Source: a virus. Taken from it: 64,000 nucleotides of DNA. A program made the position numbers and the translations under genes. Under the pieces are notes generated by a model. It saw only the letters and a list, made by a program, of their open reading frames with translations. It did no database searches and was not told where the DNA came from. This document shows positions 2,415 through 62,491 of this stretch, in pieces. The stretch covers positions 1 through 64,000 of the IMG/VR virus record IMGVR_UViG_3300042691_038651; one strand, written 5' to 3'. Every line of letters begins with the position of its first letter. Position 1 is the first letter of the stretch.

Positions 2415-4628
2415 ATGCCAGGAACATCTTCATATATCCAGATAAGCAGGTATGCTCTACTTGAATATCAGTACAACAGCGAGGCTATACCAGTCTCGGC
2501 TTCTCCTGGTAGTGCGGGTGCACTTCGATTAGAAAACAAATACACTGGCACTTATCAGTTTCTTAACACAAGCCAGTCTGTCAATTTAACAGGCAACGTA
2601 CTTGACCGTAGCGCTGCAAGAATGAATCCTGTGGGTAACCGCTGGGCATATTTTGATATTGACACAGCGGTGCCAATCTATCAGATCAACTCCAACTTTG
2701 TACTTTCAGATCTTTCAAATACACTGTCTCCTTTAGCTGGAAGATATGACACTGCAAGGCTACACATACTTTCAGGATTTGACTTTCCAGGACTAGACGG
2801 TTTAATCTTACAATTGCAATGGAAACAATGGCAACTTAATGGAGCAATTGGAAATACATTATTTGATGCATGTAACCATGTTTACCTCAAAGGACAAGAA
2901 CAAATACAATTTAATGCAACCCCGCTCTTCCTGGGTGACCGCCTCTATGATCGATACATCGATGTAAAGGTACCATCTCTTTATGATGTTAACCAAGACT
3001 TTTGGAATTCACCTACAGCATCAAATACAATTGGTTACAACTACACATTTGAAAACGTAGGGTTCTTGCAAAATTCACAAATTATTGCAAACCTCTACGA
3101 GATTGACTCTACCGAGGTTGAAAATGGTAATTTGTATCTTATTGCTGGAAATTCATTTAAGACGGCATTCAATGCATCGGATAACTATTCACAGCTTGGT
3201 TTGACTATACAAGAGGATGAAGTAAATGACTACATCGAATACTATCCTACATGGAACGGAGCTTTCCTGGAAACCTATATCAATGACTTAAACTCTGTAG
3301 GCGGAGACTGGGTAGTAATCAACCAATTGGAAGTATATGAACAGGTTGGAACCTCCAGCCGACGCACGGCTAATATGACGATGTTACAGGACAGCAATTT
3401 TGACCAACCAATGGTCTTTCGTCCAGTAATTATGAACTCCGCAGTGGCCTTTTCATATACAATCGACTACACAATGAGATTCTTTAACCGCGTGGATAAC
3501 ACAGAAATTATTCGTAAGTCGGCGTACACTTCTACCAATGTAAAGAAATATGGAAGACAGCTAGAAAAAATCAATGTACTACAAGGATTTGCACCGGTAA
3601 AAGTCTACAATAAGATTGTACAAATGACATCGGATGATACAGAAATACTTAGCGGTGTTAATGTACCAAAAGAGGTCGTAACACAACTTGTAGTAACACC
3701 AGTCTTTTATGACACAAATTTAATTAGCGTTGATAGTGCAACCGACCTTAACCAAAGCTTGGGACAAACCGTTTGGCCGCAAGGAACTAACACAATTTTC
3801 CTGGGTGCTTTTGATAACATGCTCAAGTTCAAAGTCTTTACACTTTCACCGGATAAGAAAGAGAATGTTTCCTTTGATATGTCTTCATTTATTGGAAATG
3901 TTGCATTGGCTTTTGATACAACCGATGGTAACAAACTCTATATTGACTACTACAACGACATCAATTTGGCTGACCCATCTATGGGTGAAGTTGTATTTAG
4001 AGTAGACAGCGCAACTGCTGTCAAAATTTTGGCTAGTGATGACAAGGACTACTACATCATCAATAGAACCAATCCTGAAACTGTGATCTACACGGGTAAA
4101 TGGGAAAACATTACCAAGAAGACCACGACACAGCTCTTATCAGCCAATATGCAATTAGAAAATCTTCAATCAAAGATTTCTACGGCGCAATCAAAATTGG
4201 CATCTATCCAGGAAAGTATCGCTTCGGCAGGTACTATGGTAAATGGAGGAACACAGACCAACAATGTTACTGAAACCGTATCTGGAAATGCTGCTGTTTC
4301 TACAGCGAACGCGGTGTTAACGGCTGAACAGCAAGCACAGCAAATTATATCTCAAGAGGAGCAAGCAAACCTTTCACAGCAGCAAGCAGCAACACAAGCT
4401 GCTATTGAGCAGGCCGCGTCTTCAAATTCTACTAGGCCAAACATCAATTTGATTGACATACCAGGAGTAACACCTAACCTTGGTGCAAACCCGCAAATCA
4501 GTATTAGACCAAACGTGGAAAATCCGGCAGATCCAAACGTTGGCTATAACTCTATCAACAATCCCACAAAATCGGGAAATACCAGGACACCCAGAGTGAA
4601 CAATAACAAGAACTTTGACCAACAATAA
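2415..4628 (+). CDS. large virion structural protein
   Basis: The 737-residue protein is rich in Asn, Thr, Tyr and Gln in its first 570 residues, suggesting beta-rich structure. Its C-terminal part (about residues 575-680) is a Gln/Ala-rich helical stretch with QQAATQAAIEQAA-type sequence, followed by an Asn/Pro-rich tail ending NNNKNFDQQ. It has no signal peptide or membrane segment. It lies four bases upstream of a probable tail tube gene and downstream of the spanin-like pair. It does not look like a tail sheath or major capsid protein. A baseplate, neck or whisker component is plausible; I do not recognise the family. Confidence 0.55.
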   Translation: MPGTSSYIQISRYALLEYQYNSEAIPVSASPGSAGALRLENKYTGTYQFLNTSQSVNLTGNVLDRSAARMNPVGNRWAYFDIDTAVPIYQINSNFVLSDLSNTLSPLAGRYDTARLHILSGFDFPGLDGLILQLQWKQWQLNGAIGNTLFDACNHVYLKGQEQIQFNATPLFLGDRLYDRYIDVKVPSLYDVNQDFWNSPTASNTIGYNYTFENVGFLQNSQIIANLYEIDSTEVENGNLYLIAGNSFKTAFNASDNYSQLGLTIQEDEVNDYIEYYPTWNGAFLETYINDLNSVGGDWVVINQLEVYEQVGTSSRRTANMTMLQDSNFDQPMVFRPVIMNSAVAFSYTIDYTMRFFNRVDNTEIIRKSAYTSTNVKKYGRQLEKINVLQGFAPVKVYNKIVQMTSDDTEILSGVNVPKEVVTQLVVTPVFYDTNLISVDSATDLNQSLGQTVWPQGTNTIFLGAFDNMLKFKVFTLSPDKKENVSFDMSSFIGNVALAFDTTDGNKLYIDYYNDINLADPSMGEVVFRVDSATAVKILASDDKDYYIINRTNPETVIYTGKWENITKKTTTQLLSANMQLENLQSKISTAQSKLASIQESIASAGTMVNGGTQTNNVTETVSGNAAVSTANAVLTAEQQAQQIISQEEQANLSQQQAATQAAIEQAASSNSTRPNINLIDIPGVTPNLGANPQISIRPNVENPADPNVGYNSINNPTKSGNTRTPRVNNNKNFDQQ

Positions 4629-13269: not shown

Positions 13270-13737
13270 ATGAAACACGCAAAAACATTTGAAGCTTTTA
13301 TTGCTGAAAAACTAACTGCAAAAAATCCTAATGAAGTTGTTACCATCGATGCTGATATGGCATATGATAACCCTATGGATGCTAAAGTAGTTTTTAATAA
13401 GTTCAAGCTTAAAGTAAAAGAGGTTAAAGGCGGTCAAGGCACTGAGCACGAGATCACTGGAACCAAGAAAGACATTCTTGCATATCTACAGAGCGAATTC
13501 TATGAAATGGAAGACGAGGATATTAAAGAGTTATATCCCGAGCTGCTTGAAGGAAATGAGCTTGACGAAGCAATGGTACAAATTGCCGGAAAGAGCAAGC
13601 CTTCTGGAGCTAAAGTACTTGCCATAGTTCTTGTTGACTATATGATTGAAAAGGACTATCTTAAACCAGGAATGGATAAGTCGAAGAAAAATCTGGTAGA
13701 TGATCTTCAACAATTCATTATGGATAACACTTTCTAA
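13270..13737 (+). CDS. leader-tagged protein, predicted packaged
   Basis: The 155-residue protein has leader M-K-H-A-K-T-F-E-A-F-I-A-E-K. A central alpha/beta segment (VVFNKFKLKVKEVKGGQGTEHEITGTKKDI) ends in acidic E-D-E-D-I-K-E-L-Y. A second predicted protease site, E-L-D-E-A, lies near residue 97, so the protein may be cut twice. The downstream part is a Lys-rich helical domain (KVLAIVLVDYMIEKDYLKPG) that has the size of a small DNA-binding fold, though I do not recognise it. It is preceded by another tagged gene with one base between. Confidence 0.65.
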   Translation: MKHAKTFEAFIAEKLTAKNPNEVVTIDADMAYDNPMDAKVVFNKFKLKVKEVKGGQGTEHEITGTKKDILAYLQSEFYEMEDEDIKELYPELLEGNELDEAMVQIAGKSKPSGAKVLAIVLVDYMIEKDYLKPGMDKSKKNLVDDLQQFIMDNTF

Positions 13738-19371: not shown

Positions 19372-20450
19372 AACTCTTCGAGGAATTCATCTACGAGGAA
19401 AACTTCAAAAGCAAATATGCCAAAAAAGTGGCATGGATCATGCAGTCACACGACATTCATTCCACATCAGGAAATGTAAATGCTCGTGAAAAGAAATACA
19501 ATGTGGCTGCCAAAGGCAATCTCTTCCTTAATTTTGCAACTAAAGAGGAGTTTGACAAGGATGACATTATAGTTCCTAACAACGTTCCTATCCTCTACTA
19601 TGGTGGATCTAAGGACGAGGAATCAGCAACTTTTATCAAAAACAAAAAGATTGTAGTAGATAACCTCTACAATAAGAGAGACTTGCTAATGATTTCTGGA
19701 GATAAAACCCAGTTTGCTGAAAAAGCCAACAAGTTCAACTGGTTGCCAAAGACCGTATTTTCCAAGAAGGAAGCTGTTGACGGCGCGGTAGGATTCCCGG
19801 TAATTGCCAAGATCAAAAACGGTCACAGTGGAAAAGGAATTCAAAAGTTTGACACAGCAGAAGAATTAGAAAAGAGCAAAGAGACGTTTGACCTCTTTTG
19901 CCAGTTTATTGATTTTGACCGTGAGTACCGTGTAATGTTCTGCCGTGACAAGATCATCGTGATCAACGAAAGAGTCCCGACCATCGAGGACAACCGCTCC
20001 ATCCGCACCAAGAAAGCGGATGAAAAAATTAGCTTCACTTATGTCTACCAAGACCAAAATAAAGTTGACAAAAGCTTTATTGAGCAGGTATTGTCAATAT
20101 GTAAAGACGTCAAAACATTCCTCGATTTGGACCTTTGGGCCCTTGATGTGGTGGTAGACAAAAAAGGAAAACTCTGGGTGATGGAAACATCATCTGCGAC
20201 AGGATTGGGTAGCGTGAAAATGTGCGAAGTCTATAAAGCAATCTATGAAGACTTCTACAAGGAGCCGCTTCCCGATGAATTTTTGCAAGACATCTACTTA
20301 AACTATGTAGTTCCCGGACATCAAAACTACTATCCCAAGTACAAAAAAGAAATACAGTCATCGCAGTGGCCGATGGACTATGAAATACTAACCAACCCTA
20401 AAGCCAAAGATGGCTATAGGTACTTTTTCAATCTAGACGTTAAAAAATGA
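19359..20450 (+). CDS. leader-tagged ATP-grasp enzyme
   Basis: The 363-residue protein has leader M-Q-Y-V-K-L-F-E-E-F-I-Y-E-E. It shows ATP-grasp features: FPVIAKIKNGHSGKGIQKF (ATP-binding strand and glycine loop), a pair of hinge strands (FDLFCQFIDFDREYRVMF), and a C-terminal metal-binding segment (LWALDVVVDKKGKLWVMETS). The family joins an acid to an amine through acyl phosphate, as in RimK or D-Ala-D-Ala ligase. The usual final Asn of the E-x-N pair is replaced by Ser in M-E-T-S-S. It lies between the amidotransferase-like and dehydrogenase-like genes and overlaps both. Substrate unknown. Confidence 0.7.
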   Translation: MQYVKLFEEFIYEENFKSKYAKKVAWIMQSHDIHSTSGNVNAREKKYNVAAKGNLFLNFATKEEFDKDDIIVPNNVPILYYGGSKDEESATFIKNKKIVVDNLYNKRDLLMISGDKTQFAEKANKFNWLPKTVFSKKEAVDGAVGFPVIAKIKNGHSGKGIQKFDTAEELEKSKETFDLFCQFIDFDREYRVMFCRDKIIVINERVPTIEDNRSIRTKKADEKISFTYVYQDQNKVDKSFIEQVLSICKDVKTFLDLDLWALDVVVDKKGKLWVMETSSATGLGSVKMCEVYKAIYEDFYKEPLPDEFLQDIYLNYVVPGHQNYYPKYKKEIQSSQWPMDYEILTNPKAKDGYRYFFNLDVKK

Positions 20451-21505
20451 GAACCGGAGTTTTTAAGACATCATACAAGGAAAACGAAAAGCGCATTCCA
20501 ATCTATCCTGAGCACATTCGCAAAATCAAGAGAAGTGTTCGTGAACAATTAGTATTTGAAGAAGGTTATGGTCTTGACTATGGATATTCTGATGAAGATC
20601 TAAGAGATCTAGGATGCAGCCTGGCAACAAGAGAAGAACTATATCAATGCGATACGGTCATTCTTCCTAAACCAGTTGCTGCTGACTTGGAAAAACTTAA
20701 GGACGGCGCAGTACTCTGCGGATGGACACATGCTGTTCAGCAGAGAGATATCGCTGACCTGGCTATTGAAAAAGGTCTGACCCTGTTGGCATGGGAAGAG
20801 ATGAACCTAGTCAATAAGCACGGTAAAATGCACATTTTTTACCGTAACAATGAATTGGCCGGGTACGCGGGAATCTTACATTTCCTAGAACTTAAAGGAC
20901 TGGATGGCCACTATGGACCACGCAAAAATGTAGTAATCTTGGGCTATGGCTCGGTTAGTCGCGGGGCAATTTATGCTCTGCAAGGCCGCGGATTCAATAA
21001 TATCGTGGTTTATACACAAAGGCCTTCGCACCTGGTAGTTGACAAAAATCCGGATGTATGGTACAAGTCGTTTAGTACTGACAATTTGATGGAAGACTTG
21101 ATGGGTGCTGACATCATTTTCAATGGAATCTTACAAGACGTAAATGCTCCACTGACCTACATAAAGAACGAGGCGGAACTCAATGCTCTAAAGAATAACA
21201 CTGCTATTATTGACATTAGCTGTGATAAAGGCATGGGATTCTATTTTGCTGAACCTACATCATTTGAAAGTCCTATCATTGAAATGGGTCGTGGAATTTC
21301 ATACTACTCGGTAGACCATACACCTACCTATCTGTGGAATGCAGCATCCCGTGAAATCTCAAGTGCATTGCTTCCATATTTGGAAACTATCGTGGATTCC
21401 AGCAAATGGATCAATGACGCGGTGATCTATAATTCAATTGATATTCTCAATGGTAAAGTGATCAACCAAAATATAAACAAGTTCCAAGGACGTGAAGCAC
21501 ATTAA
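20447..21505 (+). CDS. alanine dehydrogenase / carboxyethylornithine synthase-like NAD(P) enzyme
   Basis: The 352-residue protein has the N-terminal AlaDH/PNT motif (FKTSYKENEKRIPIYPEHI) and a Rossmann NAD(P) site (VVILGYGSVSRGAIYALQG, around 163-181). Length and this combination fit N5-(carboxyethyl)ornithine synthase or saccharopine/alanine dehydrogenase relatives, which form or break C-N bonds between keto acids and amino acids. It has no leader. ATGA overlaps with the ATP-grasp gene couple the two. An opine-type dehydrogenase followed by an ATP-grasp ligase suggests that a modified amino acid is made and then joined to something. The product is inference only. Confidence 0.65.
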   Translation: MRTGVFKTSYKENEKRIPIYPEHIRKIKRSVREQLVFEEGYGLDYGYSDEDLRDLGCSLATREELYQCDTVILPKPVAADLEKLKDGAVLCGWTHAVQQRDIADLAIEKGLTLLAWEEMNLVNKHGKMHIFYRNNELAGYAGILHFLELKGLDGHYGPRKNVVILGYGSVSRGAIYALQGRGFNNIVVYTQRPSHLVVDKNPDVWYKSFSTDNLMEDLMGADIIFNGILQDVNAPLTYIKNEAELNALKNNTAIIDISCDKGMGFYFAEPTSFESPIIEMGRGISYYSVDHTPTYLWNAASREISSALLPYLETIVDSSKWINDAVIYNSIDILNGKVINQNINKFQGREAH

Positions 21506-23834: not shown

Positions 23835-24548
23835 ATGAAACACATCAAAACATTTGAAAGCTTCGTTAACGAAGCACAAGACCTGGTAACATTTACCATT
23901 GACGATGATAAGCTCGACCAGCTTCTTCATGATTTTCATAAGAGAGAACTGGACTATGTAGATGTTAAAGGCGACCAGTATTACACACTGCCTCGTAGAG
24001 AATTCGATAGATTTATGGATGCTGCGGACAGCAAAGGATTCGATGTAGACTATGAAGGGTCTGAAGACTCCGTTGTCTATGTGATGGAATCTTCTATGAC
24101 AAAACTGAGTGAAGGGTATATGAGCGAACTTGATATCATACGTCAAGAGAGCAAGACTCTTGAAGAGTTCATCAAAAAAGGAAAAGCTGCTTTCCCGAAA
24201 ATTGCAAAGATGCATCATGCTGATGATTTCTTCAAAGAACTTTGGAATATGGCTCAGCAGATAAAAGAAGGTTTAAACGAATCCACCAACAGATGGTACA
24301 ATAAGATGTTGAGTCTTGGTAAATTAGGCGTTCAATTCAAATGGGTTAGTGATTTGGTCTCTCAGTCAGAAGGACTTAAAGATTCAGTAAAGAAGCACTT
24401 TTCCGGTGTAAATGAAAGAGATTTGGCAATAATTTTCAAAAGAGAAGCTGGTGCCAAATGGGATAAAGCATGCGAAATTTTTGGTGGAGTTCTCGGCAAT
24501 GATAAATCATCAGGAGAATTTGCAATTGTAAATGTAAGAACTGCATAA
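23835..24548 (+). CDS. leader-tagged protein with several candidate cleavage sites
   Basis: The 237-residue protein starts at the ATG 23835 (M-K-H-I-K-T-F-E-S-F-V-N-E-A); the in-frame ATG at 23796 lies in the preceding gene. Further E-G or E-S sites follow leader-like hydrophobics (M-T-K-L-S-E-G near residue 95; I-K-E-G-L-N-E-S near 148), so the protein may be processed into two or three pieces. The first part is a small alpha/beta domain; the rest is mainly helical and basic. It overlaps the next gene by one base (TAATG). Confidence 0.6.
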   Translation: MKHIKTFESFVNEAQDLVTFTIDDDKLDQLLHDFHKRELDYVDVKGDQYYTLPRREFDRFMDAADSKGFDVDYEGSEDSVVYVMESSMTKLSEGYMSELDIIRQESKTLEEFIKKGKAAFPKIAKMHHADDFFKELWNMAQQIKEGLNESTNRWYNKMLSLGKLGVQFKWVSDLVSQSEGLKDSVKKHFSGVNERDLAIIFKREAGAKWDKACEIFGGVLGNDKSSGEFAIVNVRTA

Positions 24549-25401: not shown

Positions 25402-25755
25402 ATGAAACACATCAAACTCTTCGAAGAATATCGATACGAGACTCGTGATATGTCATATTGGACATCCCAAAAGTCAGAGGATGAATACTTAAAAGGCCGC
25501 TTTCCTTGGTTAGCTACTAGCATAACAAAAGAATCTGAGCTTTCTGCGTTCGTAACCAAATGTATTGAAAGATGGAATCGTGAAGGCGAAAAGAACGAAC
25601 AGGTTACCAAGAAAGCCGCTGATACTGTTCAGAAGATTGCGCTAAAATACTTTCAACAATTTAATACCATTGATGGCTTTATCATAAATGCAATGATTAG
25701 AGAATTGCCAAAAACTGGAATAAAACTAAAAGATCTTGCAAATGAAGTACGTTAA
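25402..25755 (+). CDS. leader-tagged protein with DMSYW domain
   Basis: The 117-residue protein starts at 25402 with M-K-H-I-K-L-F-E-E-Y-R-Y-E-T; an in-frame ATG at 25384 would add six residues. Its body starts D-M-S-Y-W and ends KYFQQFNTIDGFIINAMI. The C-terminal domain of the protein at 43224 has the same frame (DMSYW ... DYFNQFKTINGNVISAMI), so the two share a small helical domain. It overlaps the next gene by 14 bases. Confidence 0.65.
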   Translation: MKHIKLFEEYRYETRDMSYWTSQKSEDEYLKGRFPWLATSITKESELSAFVTKCIERWNREGEKNEQVTKKAADTVQKIALKYFQQFNTIDGFIINAMIRELPKTGIKLKDLANEVR

Positions 25756-28677: not shown

Positions 28678-28859
28678 TGAAAAGTTTTGGAGAGTTCAAA
28701 GAAAAAATTGCAATTGAGGAAGCTCTAATTCCTGAGCTTAAAGAAATCCTCAAACATTTTGATGAAGCAGCAAACAAGGCCGAAGAGATGAACATGAAAC
28801 AGACTTTACAGGCTATTGAAAATGCTCGTCAAGAAATCATAACATTAAGCGGTAAATAA
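28677..28859 (+). CDS. small tagged helical protein
   Basis: The 60-residue protein starts at a TAATG overlap and begins M-K-S-F-G-E-F-K-E-K-I-A-I-E-E-A, similar to the leader type seen at 11858 but without the F-x-x-E ending. The remainder is one amphipathic helical hairpin with many Glu, Lys and Ala. Next gene overlaps by one base. Confidence 0.55.
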   Translation: MKSFGEFKEKIAIEEALIPELKEILKHFDEAANKAEEMNMKQTLQAIENARQEIITLSGK

Positions 28860-29374
28860 TGCCAGCAGTTTCACAAGCACAGCAAAAGCTCATGGGCATG
28901 GCTTACGCTCTTAAAAAGGGAGAAATGAAGCCGGAAGAAGCCAGCCAAGAGGTAATAGACCTGGCTGACTCTATGACGCTTAAACAGCTGAAAGATTTTG
29001 CAGAAACCAAGCACAAAGGTCTTCCAAAGAAAAAACACGTAGATGAATACGGATTCTTTTGGTGGGACACGCAATCACAACAAGCAGCATACCAAGCTGC
29101 CGCAAGTAAAAGAGACCAAACGGATCCATTAGTTCAAAGCTTTATAGATTTTGTAGCAGGAAAGAATAAAGACAGGGTAAAAGAAGTTGAAGAAAATTTT
29201 GCTGCACCCGCAGCAAGCGTTACAAACACCCCAGGTATGGGTAACGTGGATGCACCAGCCGTAGGCAAGGTGGGAAGCGGTGATACCTTCGGTGCCACAT
29301 CAGGTCGAAAAAAGAAGAAACGTAAAGGATCTACTAACGGCTATGATGAGTGGCTAAAAATCAGAATGTCATGA
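28859..29374 (+). CDS. DUF3008-like phage protein
   Basis: The 171-residue protein has the N-terminal segment PAVSQAQQKLMGMAYALKKG followed by a helical K-P-E-E-A region that matches DUF3008, a small domain common in T4-like phages. The C-terminal half has A-A-P-A-A-S-V-T-N-T-P-G-M-G-N-V followed by Gly-rich GSGDTFGATSGRKKKKRKG, a conserved, probably disordered end seen on virion-associated proteins. It has no leader. Function unknown. Confidence 0.65.
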   Translation: MPAVSQAQQKLMGMAYALKKGEMKPEEASQEVIDLADSMTLKQLKDFAETKHKGLPKKKHVDEYGFFWWDTQSQQAAYQAAASKRDQTDPLVQSFIDFVAGKNKDRVKEVEENFAAPAASVTNTPGMGNVDAPAVGKVGSGDTFGATSGRKKKKRKGSTNGYDEWLKIRMS

Positions 29375-40947: not shown

Positions 40948-42768
40948 ATGGCAAAGAATAACAATAGCAAAGAAATCGTAGCTCTATCAGATTTTGAGCA
41001 CGTACTACACAGGCCGACCATGTACATTGGTTCGGTAGAACGCTCTGATGAGAAAGTTCAAATCATTGAGGTAGATGAAGGTGGAAAGACCGGAAAAATC
41101 ATAGAAAAACCAAAAGTGATCTCGGTTGGCTTCTACAAAATGCTTAACGAGATCGTGGATAACTCATTCGACGAGGCCAAGCGTATGAAAGGCGCGATGC
41201 CAAAAATCCGTGTAGAAATCAACTCTAAAACCAACCAGGTAAAAGTCACTGATACTGGCGGCGGTTTCATCAATGCAGAAAAGCCAAACAGCAAAACCGG
41301 GACCAGCAATGTGGAAACAGCGCTTTCCATGCTACGAGCAGGCTCAAACTTCTACAATGAAAGCTCGACAGACAGCCTCATTGGTACAAACGGAGTAGGT
41401 GCTGCCTTGGTAAATATGCTTTCTGATGAGTTTGAGGTACACACAGTTAACGGCGAAGTTGACTACAAAATTAGTTGGAAAAGATTTGTCAAAGACAAGG
41501 AGGAATGCAAGCCTGCTGGTAAAGCAACCAAAGGAACAACAATTACATACACTCCGCGAAAAGATACATTCAAAGGATGCACATGGGACATGGAATACCT
41601 ACACACCATGTTTGTATTCAGACAGTTTCTCATCAAGCGCGATCCGCAGTTGCAAAACATGGTATTGGAATTTGTGTTTGATGGCAAATTGCTTAATTTG
41701 AATCTGCCTTTCCTGCCTGAGCAATATCTGGAAGTTCACAATGACCTGGGAACTTTCTTCCTCTGGGAAGGGTATGCAAATGGTACATCCGTATCGTTCA
41801 TCAACGGTGCTAACTGTAGCGGTATTCACCAACGTATCATGTATGACTGGGTCAATGATATGTTTGACTATCCACAGGCACATATGTTTTACGGAACATT
41901 CTTTGTACTCAACCTGCCTCCAAAGCTGGTAAAGTTTGGTGACCAAAATAAGACCAAGTATGCAGGAGGCCGCTGGGAAATTCAACCGCTCTTAGAAAAG
42001 AAGTTTTTTGCTAAGCTAAAGCGACAATTGCTAGGTTCGGAAATCTTTCAAATCATCAAAAAGAAAATTGACGAACGCAATCTCAAACAAGACCTAAACA
42101 CTCTAAAGTCCAAGAAGAAAGCTGCTGCCAAGAAAGTTAGCGACAAGTACTTTCCGCCATCACAGGCCAAAGGTACATTGTTTATTGTGGAAGGTTCTTC
42201 GGCGATGGGATCAATCCTACAAAAGCGAGATCCTCGCACGGATGGCGTCTACTCGTTAAAGGGAAAGATCAAAAATGCTCGTACAGTTCGTGACCTGGGT
42301 ACTAACGCGGAAATCATCGACTTAATGAACATCCTCAATTTGGAACCCGGAAACGGAAAAGGCTGTACATTTGCAAACGTAGCCATTGCAACTGACTGGG
42401 ACCCAGATGGTATCGGTCACATTGCATCCTTGGTAATTAACCTCTTCTACAAATGGTTCCCACAAGTCATCGACTCTGGCAAGCTCAATATCCTCATTAC
42501 GCCACTTGCATCCATTGATGTAAACAGCAAACGTCAATACTTCTATTCGCTAGAAGAATTTGGTGCGTACGAAAAAGCTGGCAACAAGATGAGTAACGTC
42601 CGATACCTTAAAGGTCTGGGTTCACTCAGCATTCAGGACTGGGAAGTGGTAATGTCTGAGCGAGCAATGTTCAAAATCAAGAACGACCGCTCTTCCGGTA
42701 AGTACATCGACATTGCATTTGGTCTTAACTCCAACAAACGTAAGAAGTGGTTGGAAGGACAACTCTAA
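40948..42768 (+). CDS. 39: type II DNA topoisomerase, large subunit (gp39/gp60-like)
   Basis: The 606-residue protein fuses GHKL ATPase, transducer and TOPRIM domains: E-I-V-D-N-S-F-D-E-A (Glu/Asn of the ATP site, around 65-74), D-T-G-G-G-F, L-I-G-T-N-G-V-G-A-A, the K-x-K transducer region, and TOPRIM with F-I-V-E-G-S-S-A (around 411) and T-D-W-D-P-D-G (around 485). In T4 this chain is split into gp39 and gp60; here it is one gene. The partner is at 45092. Upstream, ATAATATAACT (40900-40910) is a variant of the TGAATATAA motif. Confidence 0.9.
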   Translation: MAKNNNSKEIVALSDFEHVLHRPTMYIGSVERSDEKVQIIEVDEGGKTGKIIEKPKVISVGFYKMLNEIVDNSFDEAKRMKGAMPKIRVEINSKTNQVKVTDTGGGFINAEKPNSKTGTSNVETALSMLRAGSNFYNESSTDSLIGTNGVGAALVNMLSDEFEVHTVNGEVDYKISWKRFVKDKEECKPAGKATKGTTITYTPRKDTFKGCTWDMEYLHTMFVFRQFLIKRDPQLQNMVLEFVFDGKLLNLNLPFLPEQYLEVHNDLGTFFLWEGYANGTSVSFINGANCSGIHQRIMYDWVNDMFDYPQAHMFYGTFFVLNLPPKLVKFGDQNKTKYAGGRWEIQPLLEKKFFAKLKRQLLGSEIFQIIKKKIDERNLKQDLNTLKSKKKAAAKKVSDKYFPPSQAKGTLFIVEGSSAMGSILQKRDPRTDGVYSLKGKIKNARTVRDLGTNAEIIDLMNILNLEPGNGKGCTFANVAIATDWDPDGIGHIASLVINLFYKWFPQVIDSGKLNILITPLASIDVNSKRQYFYSLEEFGAYEKAGNKMSNVRYLKGLGSLSIQDWEVVMSERAMFKIKNDRSSGKYIDIAFGLNSNKRKKWLEGQL

Positions 42769-42782: not shown

Positions 42783-42805
42783 AAGGTAAAAAATAAGAGA
42801 GCGTA

Positions 42806-43222
42806 ATGAAGCACACAAAAACATTTAGTCAATTCATCGACGAAAAGAAAGACGAAAAGTACATTGCACATGTCAACGACGGTAGAGAGCCGGGCGGTTC
42901 TGACAAAGACATCAAAAAAGACTACAATCTCGATGTAGAGAACAGAGACAACGACGGTTTTGATATCGTTGGTTCAAAAGAAGATGTACAGGCTTTTATC
43001 GATGACTACGGCATCATTTTAGATGATGAAATTGCATTGGTCGAAAGCGCAGGATACATTGAGGTTATGGATCTTACACGAGTAGCAAACGCTTTAGGAG
43101 AAGTTCAAAGAGTATGGACTGAGTGGAAATCTGGTCCTGCAACCGAGCCAAGCGATATTAAACCAGCACAGAAAGATCTGAAAGGATGGATCGACCGTTG
43201 GTTCAAAGATAACATTAAGTAA
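42806..43222 (+). CDS. leader-tagged protein, predicted packaged
   Basis: The 138-residue protein has leader M-K-H-T-K-T-F-S-Q-F-I-D-E-K. Body is acidic alpha/beta (DLDVENRDNDGFDIVGSKED type), with VIGSKEDVQAFID-like and Trp-rich C-terminal helices (VQRVWTEWKSGPA; LKGWIDRWF). Function unknown. It forms a short island with the gene at 43224. Confidence 0.65.
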   Translation: MKHTKTFSQFIDEKKDEKYIAHVNDGREPGGSDKDIKKDYNLDVENRDNDGFDIVGSKEDVQAFIDDYGIILDDEIALVESAGYIEVMDLTRVANALGEVQRVWTEWKSGPATEPSDIKPAQKDLKGWIDRWFKDNIK

Positions 43223-43223
43223 T

Positions 43224-44009
43224 ATGAAGCACATAAGCACATTTGAAAATTTCCTGAATGAGGGTAATGCCTCAATGTACAAGAGCACGGTTCAAAATGC
43301 TCTTAAACTTTTAGGGTATGACTTAAAGCAGTCTGAACTTAAGGTTGGCGTTAAGAAAGAAAAGTTATATGACTTGATTACGCTTAACGGAGAACTTCTT
43401 TGTTCTTCTTCTGACTATGCTCAAATGGTAACCTGGATTCAAAACGCGGTAAAAGAAGATCCTGCAAAATATGGTCTGGATCCAAGAGTATTAGAATCGG
43501 AAGACGTGAATGAAGGCGACATGACAAAAGACTATGACGGCTTCATTGTAATTGACTACAAAACAAAGAAGAACTACAAGTTTAGATACATCAAGGGGAC
43601 TAACAACGTTAAAGTTGAAGACGAGGCAATTGCAAAACTTATGAAAGACACAAGACAGCCTCGAGCAACCTTTGCAGTAAACGGGTTGGTTAGAAAAGGT
43701 GAGTGGGATAAGTCTGACGCTCAAGTACTTGAATCAGCAAATGAGGCAAAGGACATGTCATACTGGAAACAATACGCTGAAGGCCATCATTCATCACCAA
43801 AGTGGTACAACGAAGAAGTAAAGAACGCGTCAGAAATTGCTGACCTCGTTGACGAGGTTATTAAGAATGACCAGGCTGAAGCGGAAATTCCTTTTGAGAT
43901 TGATGCAAAAGACGAGAAGGCTCTCGTTAAAATGGCAACCGATTATTTCAATCAATTCAAAACTATCAACGGCAACGTCATCAGCGCGATGATATTCCAA
44001 GGAGCATAA
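43224..44009 (+). CDS. leader-tagged probable polyprotein
   Basis: The 261-residue protein has leader M-K-H-I-S-T-F-E-N-F-L-N-E-G followed by three domain-sized segments. The junctions carry further cleavage-like sites: E-D-V-N-E-G (near residue 96) and E-S-A-N-E-A (near 174). The final segment begins K-D-M-S-Y-W and matches the mature protein at 25402 (DMSYW ... FNQFKTINGNVISAMI). Each segment is about the size of single-domain tagged proteins elsewhere. So one precursor could deliver three packaged domains. The protease itself is not in the window. Confidence 0.65.
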   Translation: MKHISTFENFLNEGNASMYKSTVQNALKLLGYDLKQSELKVGVKKEKLYDLITLNGELLCSSSDYAQMVTWIQNAVKEDPAKYGLDPRVLESEDVNEGDMTKDYDGFIVIDYKTKKNYKFRYIKGTNNVKVEDEAIAKLMKDTRQPRATFAVNGLVRKGEWDKSDAQVLESANEAKDMSYWKQYAEGHHSSPKWYNEEVKNASEIADLVDEVIKNDQAEAEIPFEIDAKDEKALVKMATDYFNQFKTINGNVISAMIFQGA

Positions 44010-44026
44010 AAACAAAACACACATAA

Positions 44027-44386
44027 ATGGAAAAGGAACTACTCAATAACGTCCTACAGATCCAGTCGCAATTAAAGGTGCTTCACTGGCAGACAGAGAG
44101 CTACGCTGAACACAATGCGTTTGGCATGACTTACGATACATTAGATGACCTGTTCGACCAAATCATTGAAGTATACAGCGGTAAATACGGCCGTCCTAAA
44201 TTTGACGGCATGAAGAACATTGCTCTTGCTGATTATGAAAACATCAAGGTAGATGCGTTCATCGACGGTGCATTAAACTTCTTTGAAAATGCTTTCATGG
44301 CAGAGAGCGACAGCGAACTTGGAAACATCTGCGACGAGATCAAAGCTGCTCTTGACAAGCTGAAGTATTTGCTGACTCTAAAATAA
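44027..44386 (+). CDS. DUF5856 / Dps-ferritin-like helical protein
   Basis: The 119-residue protein consists of four probable helices: LNNVLQIQSQLKVLHWQTES, then AEHNAFGMTYDTLDDLFDQI, a middle segment, and LGNICDEIKAALDKLKYL. The H-W-Q-T-x-S-Y-x-x-H layout is similar to Dps ferroxidase helices, and such phage proteins are known under DUF5856. The metal site would be made at a dimer interface. It has no leader. A ferritin-like tagged protein also occurs at 23264. Confidence 0.6.
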   Translation: MEKELLNNVLQIQSQLKVLHWQTESYAEHNAFGMTYDTLDDLFDQIIEVYSGKYGRPKFDGMKNIALADYENIKVDAFIDGALNFFENAFMAESDSELGNICDEIKAALDKLKYLLTLK

Positions 44387-44398
44387 GTCTAGCAAAAA

Positions 44399-44737
44399 TT
44401 GGCAGCGTACATCGGAACCATTAGGCAGATCAATTCTGCCAAGTTTGGGCCTCCATTAAAAGAAGGCTATACACAGATTGATGTAATTGTTGATGTAAAC
44501 AAAGATTATCCTAGAGCAATAGTATCAATCCCTTCGTATAGCGTGTCACAACTACAGGCTGTAGTAGACGGGCTTGATGGTGAGGTTTCAACTTACATTT
44601 CTGATGGGGTTATCAAAGCATCTCGCGGCGAATATCAGTTAGCCAAAGGTGAGGAGCCACCCAAAATTGCTGAGATACTTATGCCATCCGGCTCTGTGCT
44701 CTTTAGAATCATATATCAAATTATGTCAACCAGATAA
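44399..44737 (+). CDS. hypothetical protein, TTG start
   Basis: The 112-residue frame starts at TTG (44399), nine bases after an in-frame TAG; no ATG is available before residue 94. It looks strand-rich (YIGTIRQINSAKFGPPLKEG; YTQIDVIVDVNKDYPRAIVS). The region fits the gap between the Dps-like and next tagged gene. Function unknown. Confidence 0.55.
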   Translation: MAAYIGTIRQINSAKFGPPLKEGYTQIDVIVDVNKDYPRAIVSIPSYSVSQLQAVVDGLDGEVSTYISDGVIKASRGEYQLAKGEEPPKIAEILMPSGSVLFRIIYQIMSTR

Positions 44738-44738
44738 C

Positions 44739-44990
44739 ATGAAACACGTTAAAGAATACTACGAATACATCACTGAAGGCAAGAAGCAGATTCAGTTCAC
44801 ACTAAAGACCGATAAGAAGTTCAATCTATTTGATCTCTTAAATGCTCTCAAGCCGCTTGGTGGAGAAGTCTTGGACGGTCAACCAAACGGGGATGCCAAG
44901 GACGAGCTGATTGTCACAGTTGCTGTAGATGATTCCAAGAAAAAGAAGATTGAGGAAGAAATTGCAAAGTATGCAAAGATCCTAAAGTAA
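44739..44990 (+). CDS. leader-tagged small protein
   Basis: The 83-residue protein starts at 44739 (M-K-H-V-K-E-Y-Y-E-Y-I-T-E-G); the longer in-frame ATG at 44649 is inside the previous gene. The body is a small alpha/beta fold with a basic, ferredoxin-like alternation (FTLKTDKKFNLFDLLNALKP; VTVAVDDSKKKKIEEEIAKY). A single base separates it from the previous gene. Confidence 0.65.
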   Translation: MKHVKEYYEYITEGKKQIQFTLKTDKKFNLFDLLNALKPLGGEVLDGQPNGDAKDELIVTVAVDDSKKKKIEEEIAKYAKILK

Positions 44991-45010
44991 ATTTACTTAC
45001 ACATATTGTT

Positions 45011-45091: not shown

Positions 45092-46489
45092 ATGGCAAAG
45101 AAGATCTATAACTTACCTATTTCGAAGCAAATTAACACAAACTTCCGCAACTACGCACTCTATGTACTGGAAAATCGCGGAATACCATCTTTCTATGATG
45201 GTCTTACAAACGTTCAACGCTTCATCTTGGTGAATGCACCAAGCAACTATCACAAAACAATTTCTGTCGTGGGTTCCTGCATTTCTGACGGATATCACCA
45301 CGGCGACAAATCTCTAACTGGCGCGGTTAACAAACTGGCTCGTCCGTTTGGTTGCTCTGAGCAACTATTGCTTGGCGATGGATTCTTTGGAACGCCAGTT
45401 CAGCAGGAACCTTCTGCTGCTCGTTACACCTCTGTAAAGATTGCTCCTGGGATTTCCGATATGATTCGGAAGAACACATTCCTTAACACACGCAATGACG
45501 AAACTGGCTGGGATCCGCTCTGGGTTGATCTGCCAATTGGTCTTTCTACTACAATCATCGGTATTGCGGTTGGTTACAAAACCACGGTTCTGCCTCGTAG
45601 CATGAAAGATGTTCAAAAGTACCTGGATGGAAAACTCAAAGAGGTCAAGCCGTACTTCAAAGACTTTAGCGGAAAAATCACTCGCTTCAAGGGAATGGAC
45701 AAGTCTTGGTTGATTGAAGGGGTTGCCGAGAAAAACGTATCTGAGCGTTGGATTCGAGTAACTGAGCTTCCACCTCTTATGAAGTATGGTTCTTTCCTAA
45801 AGAAACTCGATGCAATCTTAAATTACCACCCAGGCGTAAAGGTAACCAACAACTCTTCTACAAACGTAGATATTCATCTGCGCTATAGCGGTAACGAGGA
45901 AGGCTGGGTTGCTTTTTCTGAAGCAATTGAACGCTCAATCAAAATGTTGGTAACGGAAACTCCGGTCTTTGTAAAAGATGGATTGGTGTTGGAATACGAC
46001 CGCATTGAGGACTATATCGAGGATTTCAAATATCGCCGTGCACAGCTACGCGTTGAACGCGCCAAACACTTCTTACGGGAAGCCAATGATGAATTGGAAT
46101 TTGCACGATGCAAAGAAAAGTACTTAATGTATATGTTGGAAACTCAACGAAAAGAAAATGAAGTTGAGAAGTTCCTTAATGGTGTTACCAAGAATCCAAG
46201 AGTTAAACGTCGACTGGAGTCTATATACCTCAAATCTCTAAATGAACAAGAGTTGGAAAGAACTCGTAAAGAAATCAAGAGGTTAGAAGAATTACAGGCC
46301 CAGCAAACTATAGAACTCGCCGAGGCTACCAAAATTCTAGAATCAATGGTAGATACCGCTACATCGCGCGGTACATCTAGTAAAACATCAAGTGCCGCAA
46401 ATCTGTTTGAAGACGAAGAGGAAATTGATGGAATAGCTGTTTGGGATGGCGATCTCGAACCCGAGGAAGAAACAACAAACCAAGAATAA
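45092..46489 (+). CDS. 52: type II DNA topoisomerase, medium subunit (gp52-like)
   Basis: The 465-residue protein is the breakage-reunion subunit. It has the winged-helix CAP domain with the G-x-x-x-x-x-G-Y-H-H-G-D signature and the catalytic Tyr in AARYTSVKI (Y112), which attacks DNA. The C-terminal third is a coiled coil (EFARCKEKYLMYMLETQRKE; LERTRKEIKRLEEL) as in T4 gp52 (442 residues), followed by an acidic tail. With the product of 40948 it makes a T4-type topoisomerase that relieves supercoils ahead of replication. Confidence 0.9.
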   Translation: MAKKIYNLPISKQINTNFRNYALYVLENRGIPSFYDGLTNVQRFILVNAPSNYHKTISVVGSCISDGYHHGDKSLTGAVNKLARPFGCSEQLLLGDGFFGTPVQQEPSAARYTSVKIAPGISDMIRKNTFLNTRNDETGWDPLWVDLPIGLSTTIIGIAVGYKTTVLPRSMKDVQKYLDGKLKEVKPYFKDFSGKITRFKGMDKSWLIEGVAEKNVSERWIRVTELPPLMKYGSFLKKLDAILNYHPGVKVTNNSSTNVDIHLRYSGNEEGWVAFSEAIERSIKMLVTETPVFVKDGLVLEYDRIEDYIEDFKYRRAQLRVERAKHFLREANDELEFARCKEKYLMYMLETQRKENEVEKFLNGVTKNPRVKRRLESIYLKSLNEQELERTRKEIKRLEELQAQQTIELAEATKILESMVDTATSRGTSSKTSSAANLFEDEEEIDGIAVWDGDLEPEEETTNQE

Positions 46490-60886: not shown

Positions 60887-62491
60887 ATGGCAGGTTTTAT
60901 TGATAGAGTAGGAGCAAATCCCATATTCGGCCAGATATCTAAGAGTCTAAAAACTCTGTCTTCGCTTGGAATGAAGTATGAAGACATGGTAGTAAAACAA
61001 TCTCGTGCTGTCGGTGTTACCGAGGCAGAGTTTGGATTGCAAGGATATCTACCCGAGGAGTTTCTCTACTCCTTAGCACTCACCGACGTAGGTCATAAGA
61101 AGTTTATTGCTTATTTTGACAAGGACTACAAATCACGCAGGGACTACCTTCGTAAATTTGCAATGAACCCAGAAATTGAGTTCATTCTTGATACCGTTGC
61201 TGATGAGGCGGTTGTTTATGATGATAACAACTACTTTGCAGAAATTGATACAACTCTTCTTAAAGGCATCCTTGATCCTGAGAATGCAAAAGATGTAGTA
61301 GACGAGATCAATACAACATTCAAAAAAGTATACGCGCACTTCCACTTTAACGAAGGCCATGACGGCTGGGCATATTTCCGACAAATGCTTATTGACGGAT
61401 TTCTTGCCTTTGAAATCATTTATGATCCAGCTGGAAAGAATGTAATCGGTTTCAAAGAACTAGATGCTACATCACTTCGACCTGGCGTTGAAAAGAGCGG
61501 CGACGGTGTCTACAGAAAAATCTGGGTACAGTACGAAGATATACCTGCTATGAAACGCGTACTGCTCGATTCACAAATCATTTACATCTCATACGCTAAA
61601 GGAAACTTTACAGGCCGTATCTCATACGCGGAACGCTTGGTTCGTTCATTCAACCTATTGCGTATTATGGAGAACAGCCGTGTAATTTGGAACATTATGA
61701 ACTCAAGCTTCCGCTTGAAAATGGTGGTTCCAATTGGTACAAAATCTCCGCAAAAAGCCAAGGAAAGTTTAGCAGAAATGATGGCCATCTATAAAGAGGA
61801 CATTAACTTGAACTACGACTCCGGTGAACTTTCTGTAAACGGTAAGCCTGCAATGCAGTTCTACAAAAACTACCTCTTCCCTTCTAAAAACGGTGAACAA
61901 CCTGAAATCGAAACAATCGGAGGAGATGGATATGACCTAAGCGATACCGAGGCGCTAAAATACTTTGAGGATAAGCTGAAAACTGACTCAAAAATTCCAT
62001 TTAGCAGATTTGACCGCACACAGGACGGTGGATCTTTCAGTATCAATGCCGATGGAATGACCCGCGACGAAATACGCTTTAATCGCTTTATTGTTCGTCT
62101 GCGCTCAATCTTCCAGGAAATACTTATTAAGCCTGTTTACATTCAGGTAGGACTTAATCACCCTGACCTTGCCGAGGATGAATTGTTCAAATCCGCTCTT
62201 GCACTCAAGTACAGATCTGACAATTTGTTCGAAGAGATCAAGGAAATGGATGTAATGGAAAAGCGTTCAAACTTCATTACCACAATGATGGGTATTATGG
62301 AAAAGCAACCGGATTCTTCAGGTATGCTACAGGACGTACCTTACTTCGATCCAAAGTTCTTGATAGAAAAGTATCTTGGTTTGACCAACACAGATATTGC
62401 ACGCAACGAGGCATACAAGGAGGAACAGAAGATCAAAAACGACGCCGCAATGAAAGCCGCACAGGCATCAGGTGGAGGCATGGGCTTCTAA
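60887..62491 (+). CDS. 20: portal protein, gp20-like
   Basis: The 534-residue protein has T4 portal features: E-F-I-L-D-T-V-A-D-E-A-V, F-N-E-G-H-D-G-W-A-Y-F, L-R-P-G-V-E-K-S, SSFRLKMVVPIGTKSPQKAK, and KIPFSRFDRTQDGGSFSINA (the P-x-S-R-x-D motif of gp20). It forms the dodecameric ring through which DNA is packaged, and it starts prohead assembly. Length equals T4 gp20 (524). The end is Gly-rich (ASGGGMGF). Confidence 0.9.
   Translation: MAGFIDRVGANPIFGQISKSLKTLSSLGMKYEDMVVKQSRAVGVTEAEFGLQGYLPEEFLYSLALTDVGHKKFIAYFDKDYKSRRDYLRKFAMNPEIEFILDTVADEAVVYDDNNYFAEIDTTLLKGILDPENAKDVVDEINTTFKKVYAHFHFNEGHDGWAYFRQMLIDGFLAFEIIYDPAGKNVIGFKELDATSLRPGVEKSGDGVYRKIWVQYEDIPAMKRVLLDSQIIYISYAKGNFTGRISYAERLVRSFNLLRIMENSRVIWNIMNSSFRLKMVVPIGTKSPQKAKESLAEMMAIYKEDINLNYDSGELSVNGKPAMQFYKNYLFPSKNGEQPEIETIGGDGYDLSDTEALKYFEDKLKTDSKIPFSRFDRTQDGGSFSINADGMTRDEIRFNRFIVRLRSIFQEILIKPVYIQVGLNHPDLAEDELFKSALALKYRSDNLFEEIKEMDVMEKRSNFITTMMGIMEKQPDSSGMLQDVPYFDPKFLIEKYLGLTNTDIARNEAYKEEQKIKNDAAMKAAQASGGGMGF

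Follow-up and report, generated by a model that had tools for sequence, protein, structure and literature searches.

The tagged protein and its locus

The window analysed here comprises the first 64 kb (64,000 nucleotides) of a 100,842-bp IMG/VR record. Between both topoisomerase genes of this large, uncultured T4-like phage, a gp39 homologue (40948-42768) and a gp52 homologue (45092-46489), lies an intact plus-strand ORF (43224..44009) encoding a tagged protein of 261 amino acids, whose three parts were delineated using the ORF list, domain comparison and an AlphaFold model. No Shine-Dalgarno sequence was detected at its start by the pattern used. The portal protein is encoded at 60887-62491, and genes for an S77 prohead protease and a capsid protein are absent from the 100.8 kb record. 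Relatives of 202 and 238 kb are collinear with this record, which spans roughly 40% of the ~238 kb one. Since the capsid gene and the S77 protease gene of the 238-kb relative fall outside the stretch that matches it, the record is regarded as a fragment of a larger genome and thus lacks both genes.

Some 25-35 tagged genes are present in the window, at 11.8-33 kb and 42.8-45 kb, with leaders of the type MKHIxTFExFLNE/G (the slash marks the predicted cut). The gap between the topoisomerase genes (42800-45000) is a place of fast cargo turnover, and differing tagged genes stand there in the close relatives G001, G002 and G003. The 261-residue protein is missing from the nearest relatives at the same locus, and is therefore accessory.

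The protein begins with a capsid-targeting-type leader, MKHISTFENFLNE (43224..43262, plus strand, as are all features of the ORF), which is common to about 25-35 tagged genes of the window and is modelled with low pLDDT. Its FLNE/G end predicts a cut at E13/G14, leaving a 13-residue leader. Such a short N-terminal tag, MKHISTFENFLNE/G, with an aromatic/hydrophobic core and a hydrophobic-x-Glu end and found across the cargo cluster, resembles the tags of the gp21-processed T4 proteins IPI, IPII, IPIII and Alt. Domain A follows (GNASMYKSTV..., 43263..43514; 84 amino acids, 9.4 kDa), then the first internal site, LESEDVNE/GD (43491..43520; predicted cut 43514/43515, E97/G98), domain B (GDMTKDYDGF..., 43515..43745; 77 amino acids, 8.9 kDa), the second internal site, LESANE/AK (43728..43751; predicted cut 43745/43746, E174/A175), and domain C (AKDMSYW...SAMIFQGA, 43746..44006; 87 amino acids, 9.9 kDa), with the C-terminal site linkers counted into domains A and B. 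The first-pass annotation had proposed a leader site FLNE/G and internal sites DVNE/G and SANE/A; all are present and bound the segments of 84, 77 and 87 residues. The sites thus stand, but the new N-termini that it placed at DMTKD and KDMSYW are corrected here to a predicted GDMTKD and AKDMSYW.

In an AlphaFold model of the whole chain, built from an alignment of only seven rows that is partly misaligned for domain C, three folded units were predicted with a mean pLDDT of 76.5. Values below 50 were confined to residues 1-14, 91-95 and 171-189, which correspond to the leader and to the stretches around both sites. The whole-chain pTM was low (0.36), as expected of units without a fixed orientation. 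Modelled alone, domain C forms a compact helical fold (pLDDT 87.8, pTM 0.81). The protein had no PHROG match, no Pfam match over the cut-off and no Foldseek match at E <= 0.001 among PDB and viral models, and neither domain B nor domain C had a solved relative with a meaningful E-value. The best VIA match of domain C alone, HdeA (Z 5.7, rmsd 3.5, 69 aligned residues, 6% identity), was given no weight, as a common arrangement can score as high. Internal translation starts were set aside: a Met occurs soon after the site in domains B and C, but relatives of domain C are without it (AFDA, GFDA), and the gene start itself has no Shine-Dalgarno sequence by the pattern used.

Domains shared between separate genes and chains

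Each of the three segments is found elsewhere, and the edges of the shared homology coincide with leader-type sites, which supports the three-part polyprotein suggested by the first-pass annotation. A unit 60% identical to domain A is C-terminal in another protein, as its second part (L031, 8436-8891, in G012, IMGVR 3300032092_000023), where an internal MAESFLDE/GNISFYKSTV stands in the place of the leader TFENFLNE/GNASMYKSTV of the window. This copy stops at KYGLDPK, precisely where the window protein enters its first internal site.

A search with domain B alone retrieved a 347-aa protein (L123) and a 757-aa protein (L124), whose units are 55-65% identical to it. The sites align both before the domain (LESEDVNE/G in the window, KESEEVNE/G in L123, YEGEVNE/A in L124) and after it (LESANE/A, LESVSVNE/A and FESTVNE/A, respectively). 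Domain B is also located between sites in polyproteins L144 and L148, so that in total five polyproteins hold it with NE/(G/A) sites on both sides and with five differing pairs of neighbours. The spacing of ES and NE differs from site to site, but ES and NE/(G/A) themselves are mostly kept.

Domain C had been claimed to match a separate tagged gene of the window (25402..25755, plus strand), and the match holds: the mature part of that gene's product and domain C are 33% identical across some 85 residues (E 2e-9). The leader of this gene is atypical (LFEEYRYE/TRDMSYW, with a YRYE/T site), and therefore its own cut site is uncertain. Another standalone tagged copy occurs in L123 (611-931), with FVNE/GFDAKYWEDY, and domain C is the last unit of the L124 polyprotein (3693-3941), after GESVVTE/AFDANYWEDY. 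Among the polyproteins that hold domain C, the window protein included, it stands last in 13 of 13 (L142-L199). Separate scans of viral contigs with alignments of domains A and C found nothing new.

A scan with the 757-aa protein returned 58 IMG/VR loci, among which are 19 non-identical polyproteins; these are 447-1029 residues long, have 2-11 internal sites and in many cases begin MAQVNKISSFKSFTE. Neither the window protein nor the 757-aa polyprotein had a match among isolates in the phage record collection. The collected sites follow the consensus E-S-x-V-(N/T)-E/(A/G), although they were chosen by motif and its invariant positions are so by construction. When the polyproteins were split at the sites, the order of units varied, and four unit clusters also held separate tagged genes, including domain C and the unit of window gene 31832; the clustering used reciprocal coverage, without which multi-unit segments merged everything. 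In L124 (717-3944), a 308-aa tagged ORF stops 28 bases ahead of the 757-aa polyprotein, and relatives have a single chain of about 820-1030 residues that starts in the same way. A frameshift or an assembly error may therefore have divided what is really one chain.

The window holds two further tagged multi-domain proteins, both on the plus strand. In the product of 13270..13737, ELDE/AMVQIAGK (site 13569/13570) lies between two domains, the second of which stands alone as a tagged gene in G001 (FVAE/AAVQVAGK) and recurs as one unit of a polyprotein in L123 (SVNE/ASVQVAGK). The protein encoded at 23835..24548 has KLSE/GYMS at about 24113/24114 and GLNE/STNR at about 24281/24282, and its first domain is a separate 93-aa tagged gene in G012.

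Several other genes were noted beside these. A tagged protein (FESFIFE/A) encoded at 17802-18380 matches the cytidylyltransferase-like family (PF01467, E 2.5e-7; VVFFPGRFQPFHNGH), which places it near the nicotinamide-nucleotide adenylyltransferases; it would be of note as a packaged enzyme acting on nucleotides or NAD. The cargo cluster also contains an alanine dehydrogenase or pyridine nucleotide transhydrogenase-like protein (20447-21505; PF05222, PF01262) with no obvious tag and with a close homologue in G001. A DUF3008 protein (28859-29374) has NTPGMGNV in its C-terminal part, a string that also occurs in the mature N-terminal region of the relatives' major capsid proteins (LLNTPGMGNVAPAS). 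In G003 (174543-182315, L080-L081), repeated paralogous tagged proteins are clustered (MKNLKTFDQFLNEA...) and contain internal repeats.

Cleavage-like sites and the head protease

The short motif [LIVA][ND]E[GA] arose twice or more in 0.7% of 100,000 shuffles of the body of the window protein, and the longer ES-x(0-2)-[LIVA][ND]E[GAS] never twice. Across nine related genomes, the longer motif was found 11 times in 22,008 amino acids of tagged-protein interior vs. 7 times in 290,439 amino acids of other proteins; it was framed after the data were seen, and its enrichment is therefore taken as support and not as proof. In two later records, all but at most one of 10 motif sites lie within tagged cargo cluster proteins, a count that is not fully independent because these records came via domain B.

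A rule-based test compared the mature parts of all canonically tagged proteins in 11 records with homologous stretches starting inside other proteins. Glu occupied the aligned P1 position in 12 of 20 junctions; at each of the 20 remaining offsets between P12 and P9' it did so in 0-7 of 20. Several of the other eight junctions have a nearby site a few residues off (e.g., TNE/G, LLE/A, IVEE/G). In a position-weight scan derived from leaders, internal sites were only mildly enriched over untagged proteins, and P4 is more variable at internal sites than in leaders.

T4 gp21 cuts after L/I-x-E, with a preference for Leu or Ile at P3 (PMC9026906), while the two internal sites of the window protein have Val and Ala at this position. 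Among the collected internal sites Val is the commonest P3 residue and Ala is rare. A hydrophobic-x-Glu precedes the predicted cut in both DVNE/G and SANE/A (P3 Ala), as expected of S77 protease substrates and as in the capsid sites HSLNE/G and HKLYE/D of the clade. In the T4 IPIII leader, targeting depends mainly on residues 4 and 7 and processing on residues 8 and 10, and the two functions are separable (PMC9026906), so an internal site would need only the cleavage half of a leader. This is the half that the internal sites have kept, whereas the targeting half is lost, which fits a cut site inside a chain.

The protease itself was found in relatives. Matches to the S77 family occur in 7 of 18 related records and in 7 of 11 polyprotein-bearing records, and the enzyme is encoded in the close relative G002 and the collinear G003. 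In the records read, the protease is joined to a long scaffold-like region; for example, a single 631-aa protein of G002 (L071, 137092-138987, minus strand) comprises the prohead protease and a long repetitive scaffold-like region with YAEYLAEK repeats. The capsid protein shares about 40% identity with its counterpart in the Lak megaphages. Major capsid proteins have a conserved hydrophobic-x-Glu site ahead of the mature region: HSLNE/G in G002 and G003, HSLNE/A in G006, HKLYE/D in the polyprotein-bearing records, and HELYE/N and AKLNE/D among an uncultured huge phage and Lak. A capsid start at MSKYAHYHSLNE was ruled out, as the frame stays open for about another 33 residues upstream, as far as a likely start, and SLNE/G therefore ends a propeptide of about 45 residues.

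Cargo chains as a proposed explanation

We consider it probable that the 261-residue protein is a cargo polyprotein that is targeted once and packed into the prohead, where the prohead protease would divide it into individual internal proteins. What is observed is the layout of the chain, the agreement of sites with domain edges, the exchange of domains between separate tagged genes and polyproteins, and the protease and capsid sites of relatives; that the chain is cut, and that its products stay in the virion and are delivered, is inferred. The chain would most likely be made late, and a single leader at its N-terminus, of the T4 capsid-targeting type, would carry the entire chain into the prohead core. 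The S77 protease, with a hydrophobic-x-Glu specificity predicted from the capsid and leader sites of the clade, would then cut FLNE/G, DVNE/G and SANE/A, and three internal proteins of about 9-10 kDa would remain inside the head and be delivered together with the DNA. In T4, the internal proteins are described as diverse defence proteins with only the tag in common (PMC3012670), and by analogy, a role of the products in counter-defence is a reasonable guess.

Alternatively, only the leader might be removed and the cargo otherwise remain uncut, with ES..NE as flexible acidic linkers and the domains acting as one chain. Polyvalent proteins, which are packaged multidomain chains, may act whole or be processed (PMC5512222), and the predicted disorder of the linkers fits a plain linker too. 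This alternative is unlikely in our view, since the linkers retain the exact P3-P1' pattern of the leader and capsid sites despite their varying length (ES-AN-E, ES-VSVN-E, ES-TVN-E, ES-EDVN-E), with Glu on the aligned P1, and the same domains occur elsewhere as separate tagged genes. Separate genes also bear on the idea of a core-type protein like T4 gp22 or gp67, cut to clear space. T4 core proteins are cut by gp21 into multiple fragments, most of which exit the head (PMC9026906), and the long polyproteins with their many sites look like such a substrate. However, the sites lie between predicted folded domains and not within them, and several units exist as single-domain tagged genes from which only the leader would be removed, as expected of retained cargo, which makes disposal a still less probable reading.

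The internal sites might instead be decayed leaders without present function, left by gene fusion through recombination at leader-coding DNA. Some of them do resemble a whole leader, e.g., FQTFEEFVNE/K in G001 and DFESFLSE/N, and fusion of neighbouring tagged genes is therefore their likely origin. That they are functionless relics, however, seems very improbable, as most lack the MKHIxTF half yet have kept the E-S-x-[LIV]-[NT]-E/[AG] half, and domains B and C retain their site in proteins whose remaining parts are all different.

The cargo polyprotein proposed here resembles the T4 internal head proteins in its setting, namely a T4-like phage with an S77 protease in its relatives and many unrelated small proteins that have only the tag in common. 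The accounts of T4 consulted describe one leader giving one mature protein. In the window protein, by contrast, a single leader is followed by three predicted domains and two internal leader-type sites, and in relatives by as many as about twelve units joined by such sites. With more than one predicted domain per leader, the protein is thus a variant and not a plain T4-type internal protein. T4 Alt is cut at both ends, with an LTE site near the C-terminus (PMC5694885). The giant phages SPN3US and phiKZ have inner head proteins with long propeptides, and their prohead protease cleaves certain substrates at several x-x-Glu motifs (PMC10052503), but these multiple cuts break up a propeptide thought to be cleared from the head, whereas here the pieces between the predicted cuts are predicted folded domains that also occur as separate tagged genes. 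The polyvalent proteins of phages and conjugative elements similarly have several domains per packaged chain; they were likened by the authors to RNA-virus polyproteins, and release of domains by a peptidase was proposed (PMC5512222). In the chains described here the domains are permuted. The domains of polyvalent proteins appear to be different and their peptidase lies within the chain, whereas no embedded peptidase domain was recognised in the window protein by the Pfam, PHROG and Foldseek searches, and release would fall to the head-maturation protease.

Single-leader internal proteins, a multiply cut scaffold, Alt cut at both ends, giant-phage propeptides and polyvalent proteins are thus already published. 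No account of cargo chains released by a head protease was found in the open-access library searched; as this lacks most subscription papers and preprints, the negative is no proof, but within that scope the loading of many proteins at once as joined units would be previously unreported. Taken together, we lean towards the view that a T4-like clade of large phages from environmental viromes uses cargo chains of up to about twelve units, with one tag and ESxV(N/T)E/(A/G) sites, released by the prohead protease, and that units are shuffled between chains and separate genes, with domain C always last.

This raises the testable question of whether the prohead protease, besides clearing the scaffold, also releases internal proteins from one another. 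If so, the capsid-maturation protease would double as the enzyme that frees cargo in a polyprotein system of tailed phages, and a single leader on a single chain would bring several proteins into the head in equal numbers. Because every mature protein would be delimited by the sites, sequence alone would suffice to read what uncultured large phages deliver, and the units could be cloned singly for testing.
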